DNA from: Kribbella monticola | Lineage (GTDB): Bacteria; Actinomycetota; Actinomycetes; Propionibacteriales; Kribbellaceae | DNA length: 64,000 bases | Direction of reading: 5' to 3' | Assembly: GCF_003261635.1 (NCBI RefSeq) | Contig: NZ_QFXK01000027.1 | Span: forward strand, 310,001 to 374,000 | Part shown: piece by piece, positions 5,410 to 50,876 of the stretch | Position numbering within the stretch: the stretch's first letter is position 1 | How the letters are laid out: each line of letters starts with the position of its first letter | The notes under the pieces: generated by a model | Seen by the model: the letters and a program-made list of their open reading frames with translations, nothing else | What the model was told of the DNA's origin: nothing | The model's database searches: none | Translations under genes and position numbers: made by a program

Positions 5410-6332
5410 CCCGGTTCGTCCTCCGCCGGATCCTGGCGGCCATCCCGATCGGCCTGATCGTCACGCTGGGGGTCTTCGCGCTCGTGTTCGCGATGCCCGG
5501 AGACCCCTTGCGCGAACTGGCCGGTGACAAGCCGATCCCGGCAGCGGTACTCGCGGCCAAGCGGGCGCAGTTCCACCTCGACGATCCCTTCATCGTGCAG
5601 TACCTGCTGTCGATGAAGGACATGTTCACCGGCCATTTCGGTACGACGTTCGCCGGTGCCGACATCGCCTCCCAACTCCGGTTGCGGATCCCCGTGACGC
5701 TGAAGCTGGCGACGCTGAGCCTTGCGCTGCAGTGGATCGCGGGACTGTTGTTCGGCCTGTACGCCGGGTTCCGGCGCAACGGGGTCGTCGACCGGATGCT
5801 GTTGCTGTCGACCCTCGTGGTGCTCGCCGTCCCAGGGCTGGTCCTGTACTTCGCGGGCCAGTTCCTGTTCGGCGTACAGCTCAAGTGGCTGCCGGTTTCG
5901 GGGATTACCGAGGGCTATCCGCTGGCGTACTTGTTGCCTGCGACATGTATCGCGATCACCGGCTTCGCCGGGATGGCGCGGTTGACTCGGACCTCGATCG
6001 TGGACACGGCGAACGCCGACTTCGTCAAGACGGCCCGGGCCAAAGGGCTGGGGGAGCAGCGCATCCTCTGGCGACACGTGCTGCCGAACGCGTTGCTGCC
6101 GGTGGTCACGTTGATGGGCATCGACTTCGCCGGCATCTTCGCCGGCGCGGTCCTTGCCGAGAGCATCTTCAACCTGCCGGGGCTGGGACAGTTCCTGTTC
6201 CAGTCGATCAGGTTCCACGAGGGCGGGGTGGTGGTGCTGTTGTCGACCCTCGCGTTCGTGATGTTCATCGCGATCAACCTCGTCGTCGACATCGTCTACG
6301 GCTTCATCGATCCGAGGGTGCGCAATGTCTGA
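5406..6332 (+). CDS. Peptide ABC transporter permease, DppB/OppB type
   Basis: A 308-residue inner-membrane permease with six predicted membrane segments. It has the family N-terminus (FVLRRILAAIPIGLIVTLGV) and the cytoplasmic EAA-type loop around ADFVKTARAKGLGEQRILWRHVLPNAL, shown here as the motif RAKGL at about residue 210. The GTG start overlaps the lipoprotein stop (GTGA). The DppC-type partner overlaps its 3' end by 8 bp, so the two halves of the channel are co-translated. Confidence 0.94.
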   Translation: MTRFVLRRILAAIPIGLIVTLGVFALVFAMPGDPLRELAGDKPIPAAVLAAKRAQFHLDDPFIVQYLLSMKDMFTGHFGTTFAGADIASQLRLRIPVTLKLATLSLALQWIAGLLFGLYAGFRRNGVVDRMLLLSTLVVLAVPGLVLYFAGQFLFGVQLKWLPVSGITEGYPLAYLLPATCIAITGFAGMARLTRTSIVDTANADFVKTARAKGLGEQRILWRHVLPNALLPVVTLMGIDFAGIFAGAVLAESIFNLPGLGQFLFQSIRFHEGGVVVLLSTLAFVMFIAINLVVDIVYGFIDPRVRNV

Positions 6333-24039: not shown

Positions 24040-25017
24040 ATGCCGCAACAATCCTCGCAGCACAAGGTCGTCGCGATCGTCGACGAGGGATCGAACCCGT
24101 TCGAGCTCGGCGTGGCGACCGAACTCTTCGGCCTGCGCCGCCCCGAACTCGATCGCCCCTGGTACGACTTCGCCCTCTGTACGCCGGGCGGCGCGACCCG
24201 GATGCACTCGGGCTTCTTCACGCTCACCGACGTCGCCGGCATCGACGCGGTCGACGACGCCGACACGGTGATCGTGCCGAACCGTCCCGATCCCGAGGTG
24301 CTCCCGACCGATGAGGTTCTGGCCGCCGTACGCCGGGCTGCCGCGCGCGGGGCTCGGCTGGTGAGCTTCTGCACGGGTGCTTTCAGCTTGGCGGCGGCTG
24401 GTGTTCTCGATGGGCGGCGAGCGACGACGCACTGGCGGTGGGCCGGGTTGTTCGAGCGGATGTTCCCTGCGGTGAAGCTCGAGCCCGACGTCCTGTTCGT
24501 TGATGACGGCAACGTTCTGACCGCGGCGGGAAGCGCGGCCGCGCTGGATCTCGGGCTGCACCTGATCCGCCGCGACCACGGTGCCGAGGTGGCGAACGTG
24601 GTCAGCCGCCGGCTCGTCTACACCGCTCATCGCGACGGCGGTCAGCGGCAGTTCATCGACCGGCCAGTGCCGGTGGTCGCCGACACGTCGCTAGCGCCGC
24701 TGCTCGCGTGGATTCGCAGTGAACTGGCGACTCCGCTCACCGTCGGCGATATCGCCGAGCATGCGGCGATGAGTCAGGCGACCTTGCATCGCCGCTTCCA
24801 GGCGGAGCTCGGGACGACGCCGCTGGCGTGGCTGACAAGCGAACGGGTCGCGCTCGCCTGCCGGCTGCTGGAAGCAGGCGAGGTCCGCCTCGACGCGGTC
24901 GCCCGCCAAACCGGCCTGGGCACGGCGACAAACCTCCGCACTCAACTCCGCCGCCGAACCGGCCTCCCACCCAGCGAATACCGCCGCCGCTTCGCCCTCA
25001 CCTCTCCGCGCGCCTGA
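24040..25017 (+). CDS. GlxA/FtrA-type transcriptional regulator (DJ-1/PfpI domain + AraC HTH)
   Basis: A 325-residue regulator. The N-terminal DJ-1/PfpI (class I glutamine-amidotransferase-like) sensor, residues about 10-175, has SFCTGAFSLAAAG with the nucleophile-elbow Cys. The C-terminal AraC double HTH (about 225-320) ends GLPPSEYRRRF. Family members act as activators of catabolic or detoxification genes. Divergent from the cupin gene. The 3' end converges on an FMN reductase gene across an inverted-repeat element. Confidence 0.92.
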   Translation: MPQQSSQHKVVAIVDEGSNPFELGVATELFGLRRPELDRPWYDFALCTPGGATRMHSGFFTLTDVAGIDAVDDADTVIVPNRPDPEVLPTDEVLAAVRRAAARGARLVSFCTGAFSLAAAGVLDGRRATTHWRWAGLFERMFPAVKLEPDVLFVDDGNVLTAAGSAAALDLGLHLIRRDHGAEVANVVSRRLVYTAHRDGGQRQFIDRPVPVVADTSLAPLLAWIRSELATPLTVGDIAEHAAMSQATLHRRFQAELGTTPLAWLTSERVALACRLLEAGEVRLDAVARQTGLGTATNLRTQLRRRTGLPPSEYRRRFALTSPRA

Positions 25018-26356: not shown

Positions 26357-26395
26357 GCTCGGCAGGACACCCGTCGGGGAGGTGTCCTGCCGAGC
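26357..26395 (-). terminator. Perfect 15-bp hairpin, terminator of the DUF418 gene
   Basis: GCTCGGCAGGACACC (26357-26371) pairs perfectly with 26381-26395 around a 9-nt loop. On the minus strand it begins 27 bases after the DUF418 stop and is followed by GGCATTTG. This is the GC-hairpin type without a strong U-run that is usual in actinobacteria. Confidence 0.75.
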
Positions 26396-27634: not shown

Positions 27635-27725
27635 GGGAGTTCCTTCCGGGAAACTGTGTCGGGATTGAGCTGTTACCGAAGATCCTGCCGGTGCCCGCGG
27701 CCCGCCCCCAGCGGTCTGACCCCAC

Positions 27726-27755
27726 ACTCGCGGTGGTGCTAGCACCACCGCGAGT
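27726..27755. promoter_or_regulatory. Perfect 30-bp palindrome between DUF418 and paaA
   Basis: Positions 27726-27740 (ACTCGCGGTGGTGCT) are the exact reverse complement of 27741-27755, with no spacer. It lies 92 bp upstream of the DUF418 start and 163 bp upstream of paaA, between divergent genes. A terminator is unlikely because nothing is transcribed into it from a nearby gene end. A long dyad operator or a cruciform-prone site are the main readings. Confidence 0.8.
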
Positions 27756-27857
27756 CCCGTTCGACGAGGTACTGGAAGCCTCCAGCTCACCGCTACTCCA
27801 GTGGTCACAAAGGTCCGGCCGAGGCCGACAAACCCACCAAAGAGCCGCCTGTCCGCT

Positions 27858-27910
27858 GTTGTGACACTTCTCGTCGATTTGCAGACGAAGTGTCACAACT
27901 GGGCTATGCT
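27858..27910 (+). promoter_or_regulatory. paa operon control region: 13-bp inverted repeat and leaderless-type -10 box
   Basis: GTTGTGACACTTC (27858-27870) and GAAGTGTCACAAC (27887-27899) are perfect complements with a 16-bp spacer, so arm centres are 29 bp apart, nearly three helical turns on one face. TATGCT at 27905-27910 is a good -10 and ends 7 bases before the paaA ATG, predicting a leaderless transcript. The right arm would cover the -35 region, consistent with repression relieved by phenylacetyl-CoA. No paa regulator gene is in the window. Confidence 0.7.
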
Positions 27911-27917
27911 GGCGCTC

Positions 27918-28844
27918 ATGGACAGCTTCCAGGCGACGATCGACGCCGACGGCCGGATCGAGCCGCGCGACGCGATGCCCGAGGGGTACCGCAAGACCTT
28001 GATCCGGCAGATCGCGCAGCACGCCCACTCCGAGATCATCGGCATGCAGCCCGAGGGCAACTGGATCAGCCGCACGCCGTCACTGCGCCGGAAGGCGATC
28101 CTGATGGCCAAGGTGCAGGACGAGGCCGGTCACGGGCTGTACCTGTACGCCGCGGCCGAGACGCTCGGCGTCGACCGGGCCGAGCTGCTCGATCTGCTGC
28201 ACGCCGGCAAGCAGAAGTACTCGAGCATCTTCAACTACCCGACGCTGACCTGGGCCGACATCGGCGCGATCGGCTGGCTGGTCGACGGCGCCGCGATCGT
28301 CAACCAGGTCCCGCTCTGCCGCTGTTCGTACGGGCCGTATGCGCGGGCGATGGTGCGGGTCTGCAAGGAGGAGTCGTTCCACCAGCGGCAGGGGTTCGAG
28401 ATCCTGCACACGCTGTGCAACGGCACCGAGGCGCAAAAGGCGATGGCGCAGGACGCGCTGGACCGCTGGTGGTGGCCGAGTCTGATGATGTTCGGCCCGC
28501 CGGACGCGAGCTCCACCCACTCCGAGCAGTCGATGGCGTGGGGGATCAAGCGGCACAGCAACGACGAGCTCCGGCAGCGGTTCGTGGACATGACCGTCCC
28601 GCAGGCGGACGTGCTCGGCATCCGGGTGCCCGACGACGGGCTGCGGTACGACGAGGAGACCGGGCACTACTCCTTCACCCAGCCGGACTTCACCGAGCTC
28701 TATGAAGTTGTCAAGGGCAACGGCCCGTGCAACGAGCAGCGCCTCGCCCATCGGGTGAAGGCCCACGAGGACGGCGCCTGGGTCCGCGAGGCTGCCGCGG
28801 CGTACGCCGGGAAACAAGCACAGAAGAAGGCGAGTGCCGCATGA
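27918..28844 (+). CDS. paaA: 1,2-phenylacetyl-CoA epoxidase, catalytic subunit PaaA
   Basis: Catalytic diiron subunit that epoxidises the ring of phenylacetyl-CoA (aerobic phenylacetate pathway), 308 residues. Ferritin-like carboxylate/histidine ligand motifs are visible as QDEAGHGLY (E-x-x-H, about residues 70-78) and [12 protein letters not shown] (about 152-163). ATG 27918 gives the standard N-terminus; the in-frame start at 27801 would lie upstream of the operator. It overlaps paaB by 4 bp (ATGA). First gene of paaABCDE. Confidence 0.97.
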
Positions 28845-29137
28845 GTGGGTCGGGCAGTTTGATCGAGCCGCTGTGGGAGGTCTTCGTCCGGTCCCGCCGG
28901 GGTCTGTCGCACGTGCATGTCGGCAGCCTCCATGCGCCGGACGCGACGATGGCGCTCCGCAATGCCCGCGACGTCTACACCCGCCGCCAGGAAGGGGTGT
29001 CGATCTGGGTCGTGCCCGCGGCCGACATCACCGCCTCCAGCCCGGACGAGAAGGACGAGTTCTTCGATCCGGCCGGCGACAAGGTCTACCGGCACCCGAC
29101 CTTCTACCAGGTGCCAGAGGGCGTGGACCATCTGTGA
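28841..29137 (+). CDS. paaB: 1,2-phenylacetyl-CoA epoxidase subunit PaaB
   Basis: A 98-residue small subunit needed for assembly of the PaaABCE multicomponent oxygenase. Diagnostic sequence: [20 protein letters not shown] near residue 12 and [13 protein letters not shown] near 37, normal PaaB length. Overlaps paaA (ATGA) and paaC (GTGA) by 4 bp each, so stoichiometric coupled translation is expected. Confidence 0.96.
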
Positions 29138-29874
29138 ACGACCTCTTCACTTACACGCTCCGGTTGGGTGACGATGCGCTGATCGCCGCCCAACGCACCG
29201 CCGAGTGGATCGCCGCCGCGCCGCAGCTCGAGGAAGACGTTGCCCTGGGCAACATCGGACTCGACCAGCTCGGTCAGGCCCGCTCCCTGCTCCAGTACGC
29301 CGGACAGCTCGAAGGCGCGGGCCGGTCGGAGGACGACCTGGCCTACTTCCGCGACGAGCGCGAGTTCACCAACGTGCAGCTGGTCGAGCTGCCCAACGGC
29401 GACTTCGCGGCGACGATGGCCCGCCTGCTGTACTTCGCGACGTACCAGCATCTTCTCTACGAAGAGCTGCGTGGTTGTGCCGACGAGACGCTGGCGGGGG
29501 TGGCGGGCAAGGCCGTCAAGGAGGTTGCGTACCACGTCGATCACGCGACCCAGTGGGTGCTGCGGCTCGGCGACGGTACCGAAGAGAGCCATCGGCGGAT
29601 GCAGGCCGGGCTCGACGCGATGTGGCCCTACACGGCTGAGCTGTTCGCCTCCGATGACCTGGTGCGACGCCTGGACGTGGCGGTCGATCCGTCGACGCTC
29701 GAAGAGGAATGGCTTCGCCGGGTGACGCAGGTGATCGAGGAATCCACCTGCAGCATGCCGACCTCGTCGTACCAGCACTCCGGCGGTCGCCAAGGCCGGC
29801 ATTCGGAGCACCTCGGCTACCTGCTTGCCGAGCTTCAGCACATCGCGCGCTCGCACCCGGGCGCGCAGTGGTGA
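29134..29874 (+). CDS. paaC: 1,2-phenylacetyl-CoA epoxidase, structural subunit PaaC
   Basis: A 246-residue ferritin-like partner that forms the heterodimer core with PaaA but lacks the complete diiron site. Family signatures: LGDDALIAAQRTAEW, EDVALGNIGLDQLGQAR, and KEVAYHVDHATQWVLRLGDG. GTG start inside the paaB stop (GTGA). Its 3' end overlaps paaD by 4 bp. The frame is open far upstream inside paaA, but only this start gives a PaaC N-terminus ([13 protein letters not shown]). Confidence 0.96.
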   Translation: MNDLFTYTLRLGDDALIAAQRTAEWIAAAPQLEEDVALGNIGLDQLGQARSLLQYAGQLEGAGRSEDDLAYFRDEREFTNVQLVELPNGDFAATMARLLYFATYQHLLYEELRGCADETLAGVAGKAVKEVAYHVDHATQWVLRLGDGTEESHRRMQAGLDAMWPYTAELFASDDLVRRLDVAVDPSTLEEEWLRRVTQVIEESTCSMPTSSYQHSGGRQGRHSEHLGYLLAELQHIARSHPGAQW

Positions 29875-30359
29875 CCACGATGCTGACCGACCAAGCGATC
29901 TGGGATGCGGTGGGGGAGGTCGCCGATCCGGAGGTGCCGGTGCTGACGATCGCCGACCTCGGCGTACTGCGTGGCGTCCGTCGCGAGGGCGATCAAGTGG
30001 TCGTGACGATCACCCCGACGTACTCCGGTTGCCCGGCGATGGACCTGATCCGGCACGAGGTCGAGCTCACTCTTCAGGCCCTGCACGTCGACGGCCGGGT
30101 CGAGACGGTGCTGTCGCCGGCCTGGACCACGGACTGGATGAGCGAAGAGGGCAAGGCGAAACTGACGGAGTACGGCATCGCGCCGCCGACCGGAACGCGT
30201 GCTGTCGGTGGGCCGGTGTCGGTCAGCCTGACCATCCGTTGCCCGCTGTGTGGCTCGCCGGACACGACCGAGCTGAGCCGGTTCGGATCCACCTCCTGCA
30301 AGTCACTTTGGCGCTGCAACTCCTGCCGCGAGCCCTTCGATCACTTCAAAGACCTTTGA
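29871..30359 (+). CDS. paaD: 1,2-phenylacetyl-CoA epoxidase maturation protein PaaD
   Basis: A 162-residue DUF59/MIP18-type protein, thought to help deliver iron or iron-sulfur centres to the epoxidase. The N-terminal DUF59 domain (VADPEVPVLTIADLGVLRGV, then TPTYSGCPAMDLI with the conserved Cys) is followed by a C-terminal zinc ribbon: CPLCGSPDT and CNSCREPF. GTG 29871 overlaps the paaC stop; another GTG is one codon earlier. 25 bp separate it from paaE. Confidence 0.95.
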   Translation: MTTMLTDQAIWDAVGEVADPEVPVLTIADLGVLRGVRREGDQVVVTITPTYSGCPAMDLIRHEVELTLQALHVDGRVETVLSPAWTTDWMSEEGKAKLTEYGIAPPTGTRAVGGPVSVSLTIRCPLCGSPDTTELSRFGSTSCKSLWRCNSCREPFDHFKDL

Positions 30360-30384: not shown

Positions 30385-31467
30385 ATGACGACGATGACCC
30401 GCCGCCGGGCGACCTTCCATCCGTTGAAGGTCAAGGCGATCGACGCGATCACCGACGAGTCGGTCGCGATCACCTTCGAGGTGCCGGACGACCTCGCCGC
30501 GGAGTACGAGTTCAGTGCGGGGCAGCACCTCACGGTCCGTCGTGCCGGTGACGAAGTACGCCGCAGCTACTCGATCTGCTCGCCCGCGGGATCCGGCGTA
30601 CTGCGGATCGCCGTGAAGCGCATCCCGGGTGGCGAGTTCTCCTCGTACGCCGCGAACGAGCTCAAGCCGGGTGACACCATCGAGGTGATGACGCCGCTCG
30701 GCCGCTTCGGGACGGAGCTCGATCCGGCGAACGCGAAGCACTATGCGTTCATCGCCGCAGGCAGCGGGATCACTCCGGTGCTGTCGCTGGTCGCCACCAC
30801 CCTCGCGGTCGAGCCGGAGAGCCGGGTCACCTTGCTCTACGGGAACCGTACGGCGGGCTCGGTGATGTTCGCGGACGAGTTGGCCGACCTCAAGGACGTG
30901 TACGCCGAACGCCTGCACCTGGTGCACGTGTTGTCGCGCGAGTCGACCGAGGTCGAGCTGTTCAGCGGCCGGATCGATCGCGAGCGGCTGGGCCGGATGA
31001 TCGACGTCTTGCTGCCGGTGAAGTCGGTCGACGAATGGTTCCTCTGCGGTCCGTACGCGATGGTGGTCGGCGCGCAGGAACTCCTGCTGGAGCAGGGCGT
31101 TCCGCGCGAGACGGTGCACGCGGAGTTGTTCCACGTCGGCGACGAGGCACCCACAGCGCGCGTCGAGGAGACCACGATCGACGAGGACGCCGCCGAGGTG
31201 ACGGTCATCCTCGACGGGCGGCGGTCGACCTTCCCGCTCGGCGAGCACGCGAAGGCGGTGCTGGACGCGACGCTCGCCGTACGGTCTGATGCTCCGTTTG
31301 CCTGCAAGGGCGGCGTGTGCGGCACCTGCCGCGCGAAGGTGGTCGAAGGCTCGGTCCGGATGGACACCAACTGGGCGCTCGAGCCGGATGAGATCCGGGC
31401 CGGCTACGTCCTCACCTGCCAGTCCCACCCGACCAGCGAGAAGGTCACCCTCGACTTCGACGCCTGA
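30385..31467 (+). CDS. paaE: 1,2-phenylacetyl-CoA epoxidase, reductase subunit PaaE
   Basis: The 360-residue NADPH-dependent electron donor of the epoxidase. FAD-binding barrel with RRSYSICS (about residues 53-60), NAD-binding domain beginning FIAAGSGITPVLS (about 122-134), and a C-terminal plant-type [2Fe-2S] ferredoxin domain with CKGGVCGTCRAKV and a later Cys in LTCQSHP. Normal length. Last gene of the operon in this window; no ring-opening or beta-oxidation genes (paaG, Z, H, J, K) are nearby. Its last three codons are the first unit of a short repeat array that merges into the terminator. Confidence 0.97.
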   Translation: MTTMTRRRATFHPLKVKAIDAITDESVAITFEVPDDLAAEYEFSAGQHLTVRRAGDEVRRSYSICSPAGSGVLRIAVKRIPGGEFSSYAANELKPGDTIEVMTPLGRFGTELDPANAKHYAFIAAGSGITPVLSLVATTLAVEPESRVTLLYGNRTAGSVMFADELADLKDVYAERLHLVHVLSRESTEVELFSGRIDRERLGRMIDVLLPVKSVDEWFLCGPYAMVVGAQELLLEQGVPRETVHAELFHVGDEAPTARVEETTIDEDAAEVTVILDGRRSTFPLGEHAKAVLDATLAVRSDAPFACKGGVCGTCRAKVVEGSVRMDTNWALEPDEIRAGYVLTCQSHPTSEKVTLDFDA

Positions 31468-50841: not shown

Positions 50842-50876
50842 GGGCACCGCGACCGGCCGGCGCGGTCGCGGTGCCC
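50842..50876 (+). terminator. Perfect 13-bp GC-rich hairpin after the DinB gene
   Basis: GGGCACCGCGACC (50842-50854) pairs perfectly with 50864-50876 around a 9-nt loop, 61 bp after the stop and 120 bp before ftsK. No T-run follows, as usual for such hairpins in high-GC actinobacteria. Confidence 0.7.

Follow-up and report, generated by a model that had tools for sequence, protein, structure and literature searches.

A conserved, widely spaced repeat at the paaABCDE promoter of Kribbella and an unlinked PaaX-family gene as its probable regulator

Results

An inverted repeat at the paaA promoter

The window, meaning the whole 64,000-nucleotide stretch of Kribbella monticola DNA analysed here, encodes the 1,2-phenylacetyl-CoA epoxidase operon paaABCDE, and all five genes score above their NCBIfam equivalog cut-offs. 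A divergent DUF418 gene lies upstream of the predicted paaA operator. The features of the locus, in window coordinates, are as follows.

27858..27870, + strand: left arm of the predicted operator, GTTGTGACACTTC; core TGTGACAC at 27860-27867
27871..27886, + strand: spacer of the predicted operator, 16 nt between the arms
27887..27899, + strand: right arm of the predicted operator, GAAGTGTCACAAC; core GTGTCACA at 27890-27897
27905..27910, + strand: -10-like box TATGCT
27918..28844, + strand: paaA, 1,2-phenylacetyl-CoA epoxidase subunit A (TIGR02156, 507 bits, cut-off 280; start by alignment with relatives)
28841..29137, + strand: paaB (TIGR02157, 146 bits, cut-off 85; start inferred from overlap)
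29134..29874, + strand: paaC (TIGR02158, 296 bits, cut-off 133; start inferred from overlap)
29871..30359, + strand: paaD (TIGR02159, 187 bits, cut-off 108; start inferred from overlap)
30385..31467, + strand: paaE, reductase subunit (TIGR02160, 472 bits, cut-off 421)

The two arms are complementary at 13 of 13 positions across the spacer, which bears out the 13-bp inverted repeat described in a first-pass annotation of this DNA, and their centres are 29 bp or about 2.8 helical turns apart, close to the three turns given there. The stretch described there ends at 27910, the last base of TATGCT, and the ATG of paaA follows at 27918. Four perfect 13-bp inverted repeats with gaps of at most 30 occur in the window, against a mean of 0.083 in 60 dinucleotide shuffles. 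A chance origin of the paaA repeat is unlikely, and three other such repeats share the window with it; the strong evidence for this repeat is its conservation.

Exact copies of the half-site TTGTGACACTTC are found in the 8.0-Mb genome only at the paaA repeat, once per strand, and allowing one mismatch adds five further single places. The backward control pattern gives more matches (13) than the half-site pattern itself (seven), and single half-sites therefore mean nothing. The strict pair TGTGACAC-N20-26-GTGTCACA gave one match per genome in 14 of 16 genus genomes, always at the paaA coordinates, and none with its control; the remaining two (G002 and G011) have one altered base in the right arm. 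The loose pattern GTGAC-N22-32-GTCAC, with at least 180 matches in the K. monticola genome and 53 for its control, is of no use for a regulon search. A sigma-70-type promoter scan of 27640-27960 found nothing, so the -35 element of the paaA promoter is not defined; the region where it would be expected is the spacer, and the scan finds none there. In relatives of family f23 such as G308, TGGACA precedes the -10-like box by 17 nt, and the right arm falls between the two.

A separate element, the perfect 30-bp palindrome ACTCGCGGTGGTGCTAGCACCACCGCGAGT, is located at 27726-27755, about 100 bp upstream of the operator. Within 320 nt before paaA the best match to its 18-bp core reaches at least 13 of 18 in 32 of the 38 genus genomes, a count for which no null was run, and these matches fall mostly 70-110 bp before paaA. 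The exact core occurs, among 25 genomes, only here and before paaA of G008, and with two mismatches a control pattern matches more often than the core. Further perfect 13-bp inverted repeats are present at 26357-26395 and 50842-50876, with gaps of 13 and 9 nt.

Conservation of the repeat within Kribbella

The paaA gene was found in 32 of 39 relatives and, at the level of the order, in 83 of 147 genomes (38 of the genus and 45 others), and the region upstream of paaA was read for all 83. All 38 Kribbella genomes have the repeat upstream of paaA, with 16 of 16 core positions in 36 and 15 of 16 in two, and the proposal of an operator-like element on the paaABCDE promoter is thus upheld across the genus rather than undone by loss of the repeat in relatives. 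The left core TGTGACAC is identical in all 38 and the right core GTGTCACA in 36, with one change in the other two, and the gap between the cores is 22 in 26 genomes and 23 in 12. The -10-like box reads TATGCT in 35 genomes and TATGGT in three. According to a pattern script, the paaA start codon lies 6 nt (21 genomes) or 7 nt (17 genomes) after this box, in agreement with the leaderless-type promoter that had been suggested. The right-arm word TGTCACA ends 7 nt before the box in 23 genomes and touches it in 15, so the operator keeps its place at the promoter even where its register to the -10 has shifted. Judged by this conservation, the repeat is almost certainly an operator.

An unlinked PaaX-family gene

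The earlier remark that no regulator gene is present nearby holds to the extent that no PaaX- or PaaR-like gene was seen beside paaA. A PaaX-family gene is encoded elsewhere in the genome, at G000:C77:440722-441519 (L048:6723-7520), with paaABCDE on C73, and where both lie on one long contig they are megabases apart (0.47 Mb versus 5.93 Mb in G024). A PF07848 search of the 39 relatives returned at least one match of at least 65 bits in each of 25 genus genomes. Three f4/g7 genomes, all of them bearing the site, yielded one such match each; among the remaining 11, matches were weaker (up to 46.8 bits) or lacking. With the K. monticola PaaX as query, matches of at least 470 bits were obtained in 13 further genus genomes, and the gene was not found in 20 genomes of the order that lack paaA. 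The match in G050 (L122; G050:C1:9030997-9031830) is split by additional bases into two parts (query 2-200 and query 201-263), both of which fall within open frames of 364 aa.

The unlinked gene is found in 38 of 38 genus genomes, and it has a PaaG-like neighbour. In the 24 loci that were fetched, an enoyl-CoA hydratase gene always adjoins paaX: in 23 it follows paaX immediately on the same strand, and in L114 the two genes converge; the best model for this neighbour is PaaG (TIGR02280), at 216.9 bits below a cut-off of 345.15. By its sequence the K. monticola protein is a member of the PaaX family not filed as an equivalog of the E. coli protein. It exceeds the Pfam cut-offs for PF07848 (65.1 versus 24.8 bits) and for PaaX_C, PF08223 (91.8 versus 22), falls just below that for the middle domain PaaX_M (22.2 versus 24) and scores 158.1 bits on the NCBIfam equivalog TIGR02277, below the cut-off of 264.55. 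Among solved structures, the chain closest in sequence is that of E. coli PaaX (8a39, E 3.7e-22).

Co-occurrence of site and PaaX outside the genus

Outside the genus, PaaX was scored as present at 200 bits or more in the order and at E<=1e-40 in the class. Of the 296 genomes in the class-level survey, 57 have PaaX and 135 have paaA. Among the 118 genomes outside the order with paaA, upstream regions were read for 60 copies in 59 genomes, namely 34 of 36 PaaX genomes and 25 of 82 that lack PaaX, the latter picked before their upstream regions were seen. G181 and G195 were left out because their paaA is only partial; a second paaA copy in G154, which has no site, was dropped from the count of 104 genomes given below, and G178, G258 and, among genomes without PaaX, some others with a second copy are represented by one copy each.

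In the order outside the genus, PaaX reaches at least 200 bits in 13 of 45 paaA genomes, and the site scores at least 13 of 16 in ten of these 13 versus none of the other 32. Over all 104 non-genus genomes, a site of at least 13 of 16 accompanies PaaX in 36 of 47 and is found in none of the 57 genomes without it; at a threshold of 12 the figures are 40 of 47 and three of 57. When PaaX labels were shuffled within families, the observed value was reached in 0 of 100,000 trials. The three genomes with a site of at least 12 and no PaaX are G145 and G058, which have PaaR-type palindromes, and G277, an 86%-complete genome of family f17, in which the five other PaaX genomes read have both site and PaaX. 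Both can also be missing together: Actinopolymorpha alba (G043) has neither site nor PaaX, and five other g7 genomes have both.

PaaX genomes without a site number 11 of 47 at a threshold of 13 and seven at 12. In G153, G157, G211 and G287 PaaX is present and there is no site, and 16 of the 52 class genomes outside the order with PaaX have no paaA match, so that PaaX must there serve something else. Three f3 genomes from the group lacking the site (G133, G086 and G139; loci L093, L083 and L074) have a PaaX gene and a PaaR-type palindrome at paaA, and these may possibly be snapshots of a regulator swap. Fifteen of 80 named paaA loci score at least 13, a count that concerns the site only. They include two Kribbella loci (which belong to G003 and G015), a Propionibacteriales MAG, Nocardioides speluncae and Actinokineospora terrae, together with loci in Micromonospora, Dactylosporangium, Planosporangium, Hamadaea (MAG) and Catellatospora.

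A second paa promoter and further profile matches

A sequence-only model, R1, was built from 79 aligned sites (38 from the genus, ten from the order and 31 from the class including G277) and run over 31 Kribbella genomes, with 150 of about 1,500-1,900 first-look candidates scored per genome, so that other sites may be missed. The paaA site is the top match in 31 of 31 by construction, since these sites are in the model, and the real test is the next match. The best non-paaA match was fetched for 29 of the 31, and only a lower match for G002 and G022. Thirteen of these 29 lie at the promoter between paaN and paaI-paaJ-paaK, 13 between eamA and a 2-oxoacid dehydrogenase E1 gene, two upstream of an M4 peptidase gene and one elsewhere. 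In L194 and L224, two of the 13 paaN promoters, there is no paaI match and paaJ comes next. The paaN promoter site is a lower R1 match in six more genomes (G011, G013, G016, G018, G022 and G048). The second-site locus of the K. monticola genome comprises:

L189:9933-9974: second site copy, E 0.006 for the genome, between divergent paaN and paaI
paaN: 839 bits, NCBIfam cut-off 579
paaI: 150 bits, NCBIfam cut-off 119
3-oxoadipyl-CoA thiolase gene, here called paaJ: 664 bits, NCBIfam cut-off 597
paaK: 690 bits, NCBIfam cut-off 646

The dehydrogenase E1-alpha encoded at the eamA promoter is classed by its score as pyruvate dehydrogenase (434 bits against a cut-off of 411), and within a few kb of the dehydrogenase operon there is a HisC-like aminotransferase gene. 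Copies of this site (L192 about 5985-6024, with equivalents in L193, L195-L199, L203-L207, L225 and L226) are found in part of the genus, and L196 has another R1 match (about 6256-6296) just before the HisC-like aminotransferase gene. With default filters R1 found no site in the 24 paaX loci, and autoregulation of paaX through the operator motif is thus not indicated.

A site-like pair occurs upstream of a thermolysin-family (M4) peptidase gene and downstream of a DUF255 gene (L209 about 5996-6040 in the K. monticola genome; L211-L213 and L228). Its distance to paaX is about 105-120 kb, both here and in four other genomes, and in the K. monticola genome it is below the R1 cut-off. R1 reports none of the five one-mismatch single half-sites of this genome, one of which, at C77:547500, is part of this weak pair upstream of the M4 peptidase gene. 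The M4 peptidase gene, with its conserved R1 matches, is no obvious phenylacetate target. The third-ranked R1 match in K. monticola (L210:6073-6109, genome-wide E 1.03) is probably a chance hit. The best non-paaA match in G012 (L227 about 6059-6105) has a longer spacer and lies at the 3′ end of an ORF resembling, by eye, a MeaB-type GTPase; R1 matches of the same 47-nt length are found in four other genus genomes.

Discussion

Proposed mechanism

The repeat is very probably an operator relieved by phenylacetyl-CoA and read by a PaaX-family repressor whose gene is unlinked to it. We infer strongly that PaaX is the reader of the site, whose sequence, conservation, place at the promoter, recurrence at another paa promoter and co-occurrence with PaaX are matters of direct observation; the next matches of R1, the PaaG-like neighbour of paaX, the layout of the E. 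coli site and the precedent of Rhodococcus opacus point the same way. Direct binding by PaaX is predicted, and repression rather than activation is expected from the PaaX family, with phenylacetyl-CoA as the inducer by analogy with E. coli PaaX. A PaaX dimer would hold two TGTGACAC half-sites about three turns apart. Since the right arm ends shortly before the -10-like box or abuts it, bound PaaX would keep RNA polymerase off the paaA promoter. Breakdown of phenylacetate or phenylalanine would yield phenylacetyl-CoA, which would bind PaaX and release it from DNA, and paaABCDE would then be turned on together with the unlinked paaN and paaI-paaJ-paaK promoter through the second copy of the site.

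Several observations speak against PaaX: its scores for TIGR02277 and PaaX_M are below cut-off, there are PaaX genomes without the site and PaaX genes without paaA, the letters and spacing of the half-sites are unlike those of E. coli, the paaX loci have no site, and R1 matches occur at an M4 peptidase gene. The label of an orphan regulator used in the first-pass annotation is not supported. An unlinked PaaX-family gene fits: it has a PaaG-like gene as its neighbour, and from family to family its presence follows that of the site.

Alternative readers of the site

That the site is instead read by the TetR-family protein encoded beside paaK (L189:13177-13794), perhaps with one dimer per arm, is conceivable in that TGTGACA is itself an odd palindrome, and by gene context TetR-type PaaR is the dominant local regulator in Actinomycetes in the portion of the survey available (PMC13186573). 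The TetR gene is present in six of eight paaN/paaK loci (L200 is without it, and the contig of L202 ends just after paaK), and a homologue occurs in 35 of 35 Kribbella genomes asked. In 23 of these 35, however, the match is only 54-59% identical, and the two-arm site spans 34-36 bp against the compact palindromes described for PaaR. A homologue (E<=1e-15) was found in 0 of 40 site-bearing non-genus genomes, all chosen from PaaX-bearing genomes, and the paaK-side protein is therefore improbable as the general reader; we consider this explanation very unlikely overall.

An equally slight probability attaches to another regulator, CRP-like or encoded near paaA, that reads the site and merely shares its distribution with PaaX. 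The words TGTGA...TCACA resemble CRP half-sites, conserved R1 matches exist outside the paa pathway, and the window contains AraC-, LacI- and three TetR-type genes, the nearest to paaA being an FtrA-like AraC gene at 24040-25017. CRP sites have 6 bp between TGTGA and TCACA, whereas the gap at the paaA site is about 28. A tblastn search (E<=1e-5) of the 19 kb around paaA in seven site-bearing relatives found none of the five window regulators. A regulator of broad use would also not be expected to vanish together with PaaX within f3, f4 and f23; for f17 this depends on the score cut-off.

Action of the repeat as RNA, in the form of a hairpin, attenuator or terminator, is scarcely credible. Its perfect arms could form a stem, but RNAalifold predicts 0 pairs on the 79 aligned sites, as expected of a DNA site, since the arms have diverged into pairs that are no longer complementary, such as TGTTACAC/GTGTCACA. 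No terminator-like site was found, and the RNA hairpin or terminator was rejected on these two grounds. In 38 of 38 genus genomes, moreover, the repeat precedes the -10-like box, and transcripts from the paaA promoter would not include it.

Comparison with known PaaX and PaaR systems

In the accessible text of PMC9493321, the E. coli PaaX site is TGATTC-N27-GAATCA, a widely spaced inverted repeat, and E. coli paaX is autoregulated. In E. coli K-12 we find TGATTC-N27-GAATCG before paaA and TGATTC-AT-AAATCA before paaX; the wide layout is thus not universal, since at the paaX promoter TGATTC has a near partner 2 nt away. The Kribbella system resembles that of E. coli in a PaaX-family protein, in half-sites about three turns apart at the paaA promoter, in TGTGA within the half-site, and in having a widely spaced inverted repeat at paa promoters. 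It departs from the E. coli consensus: the half-site is TGTGACAC rather than TGATTC, the inner letters differ, and the span from TGA to TCA is 34-36 bp over all lineages here against 39 in E. coli. The claim that the half-site is unlike PaaX sites accordingly holds for its letters and not for its layout or for TGTGA, which both carry. The regulator gene is beside a PaaG-like gene and unlinked to the paa operon, whereas E. coli paaXY follows paaK, and no site was found at the promoter of Kribbella paaX, in contrast to the autoregulated E. coli gene. Kribbella PaaX likely works as E. coli PaaX does, while lying outside the same NCBIfam ortholog group.

PaaR proteins of Burkholderia, Thermus and Corynebacterium, which belong to the TetR family, are described in the same accessible text as binding compact palindromes, and phenylacetyl-CoA releases PaaR from DNA in Burkholderia and Thermus (PMC9493321). 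PaaR shares with the system proposed here the regulation of paa genes and differs by a compact palindrome such as ACCGACCGGTCGGTT. Among non-genus genomes, a loose PaaR-like word precedes paaA in 46 of the 68 that lack the PaaX site and in four of the 36 that have it; in the genus the count is 0 of 38. By this word, compact palindromes of the ACCGACCGGTCGGT kind are absent from 38 of 38 genus paaA promoters; they are seen in f3 relatives such as L067-L072.

Another PaaX-family regulator of a paa cluster in an actinomycete is that of Rhodococcus opacus (K2Z90_RS32760), reported in the available part of PMC11186279 as a negative regulator; its gene lies a few kb from the paa cluster, whereas Kribbella paaX is unlinked, and no operator is given there. 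Our literature search, with subscription papers mostly outside its reach, found no PaaX operator of this sequence in actinomycetes. Work by Zhao in 2015, cited in PMC7089894, reportedly dealt with paa regulation in S. pristinaespiralis.

Implications

A trans-acting PaaX regulon may be old and widespread in actinomycetes and, in part of Kribbella, may also have taken in the 2-oxoacid dehydrogenase operon near the HisC-like aminotransferase gene, in which case PaaX would govern the formation of phenylacetyl-CoA, its own inducer, from phenylalanine. We put this forward tentatively, with somewhat more doubt than confidence. If the trans-acting regulon is real, a survey confined to gene neighbourhoods would find PaaR there, or no regulator at all. 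A 2026 survey, in the portion available, assigned PaaX and PaaR from their genomic context, limited to 20 flanking genes, and found PaaR dominant in Actinomycetes (PMC13186573); an unlinked PaaX would escape a survey limited in this way. The joint absence of site and PaaX, and the PaaR-type palindromes in sister lineages, suggest swapping of regulators on one pathway. In sum, the site is a conserved, predicted DNA switch ahead of genes for phenylacetate breakdown, present in Kribbella as well as in some related actinomycetes of the soil, and the analysis names a candidate regulator and operator for this pathway in lineages where no regulator adjoins the operon.
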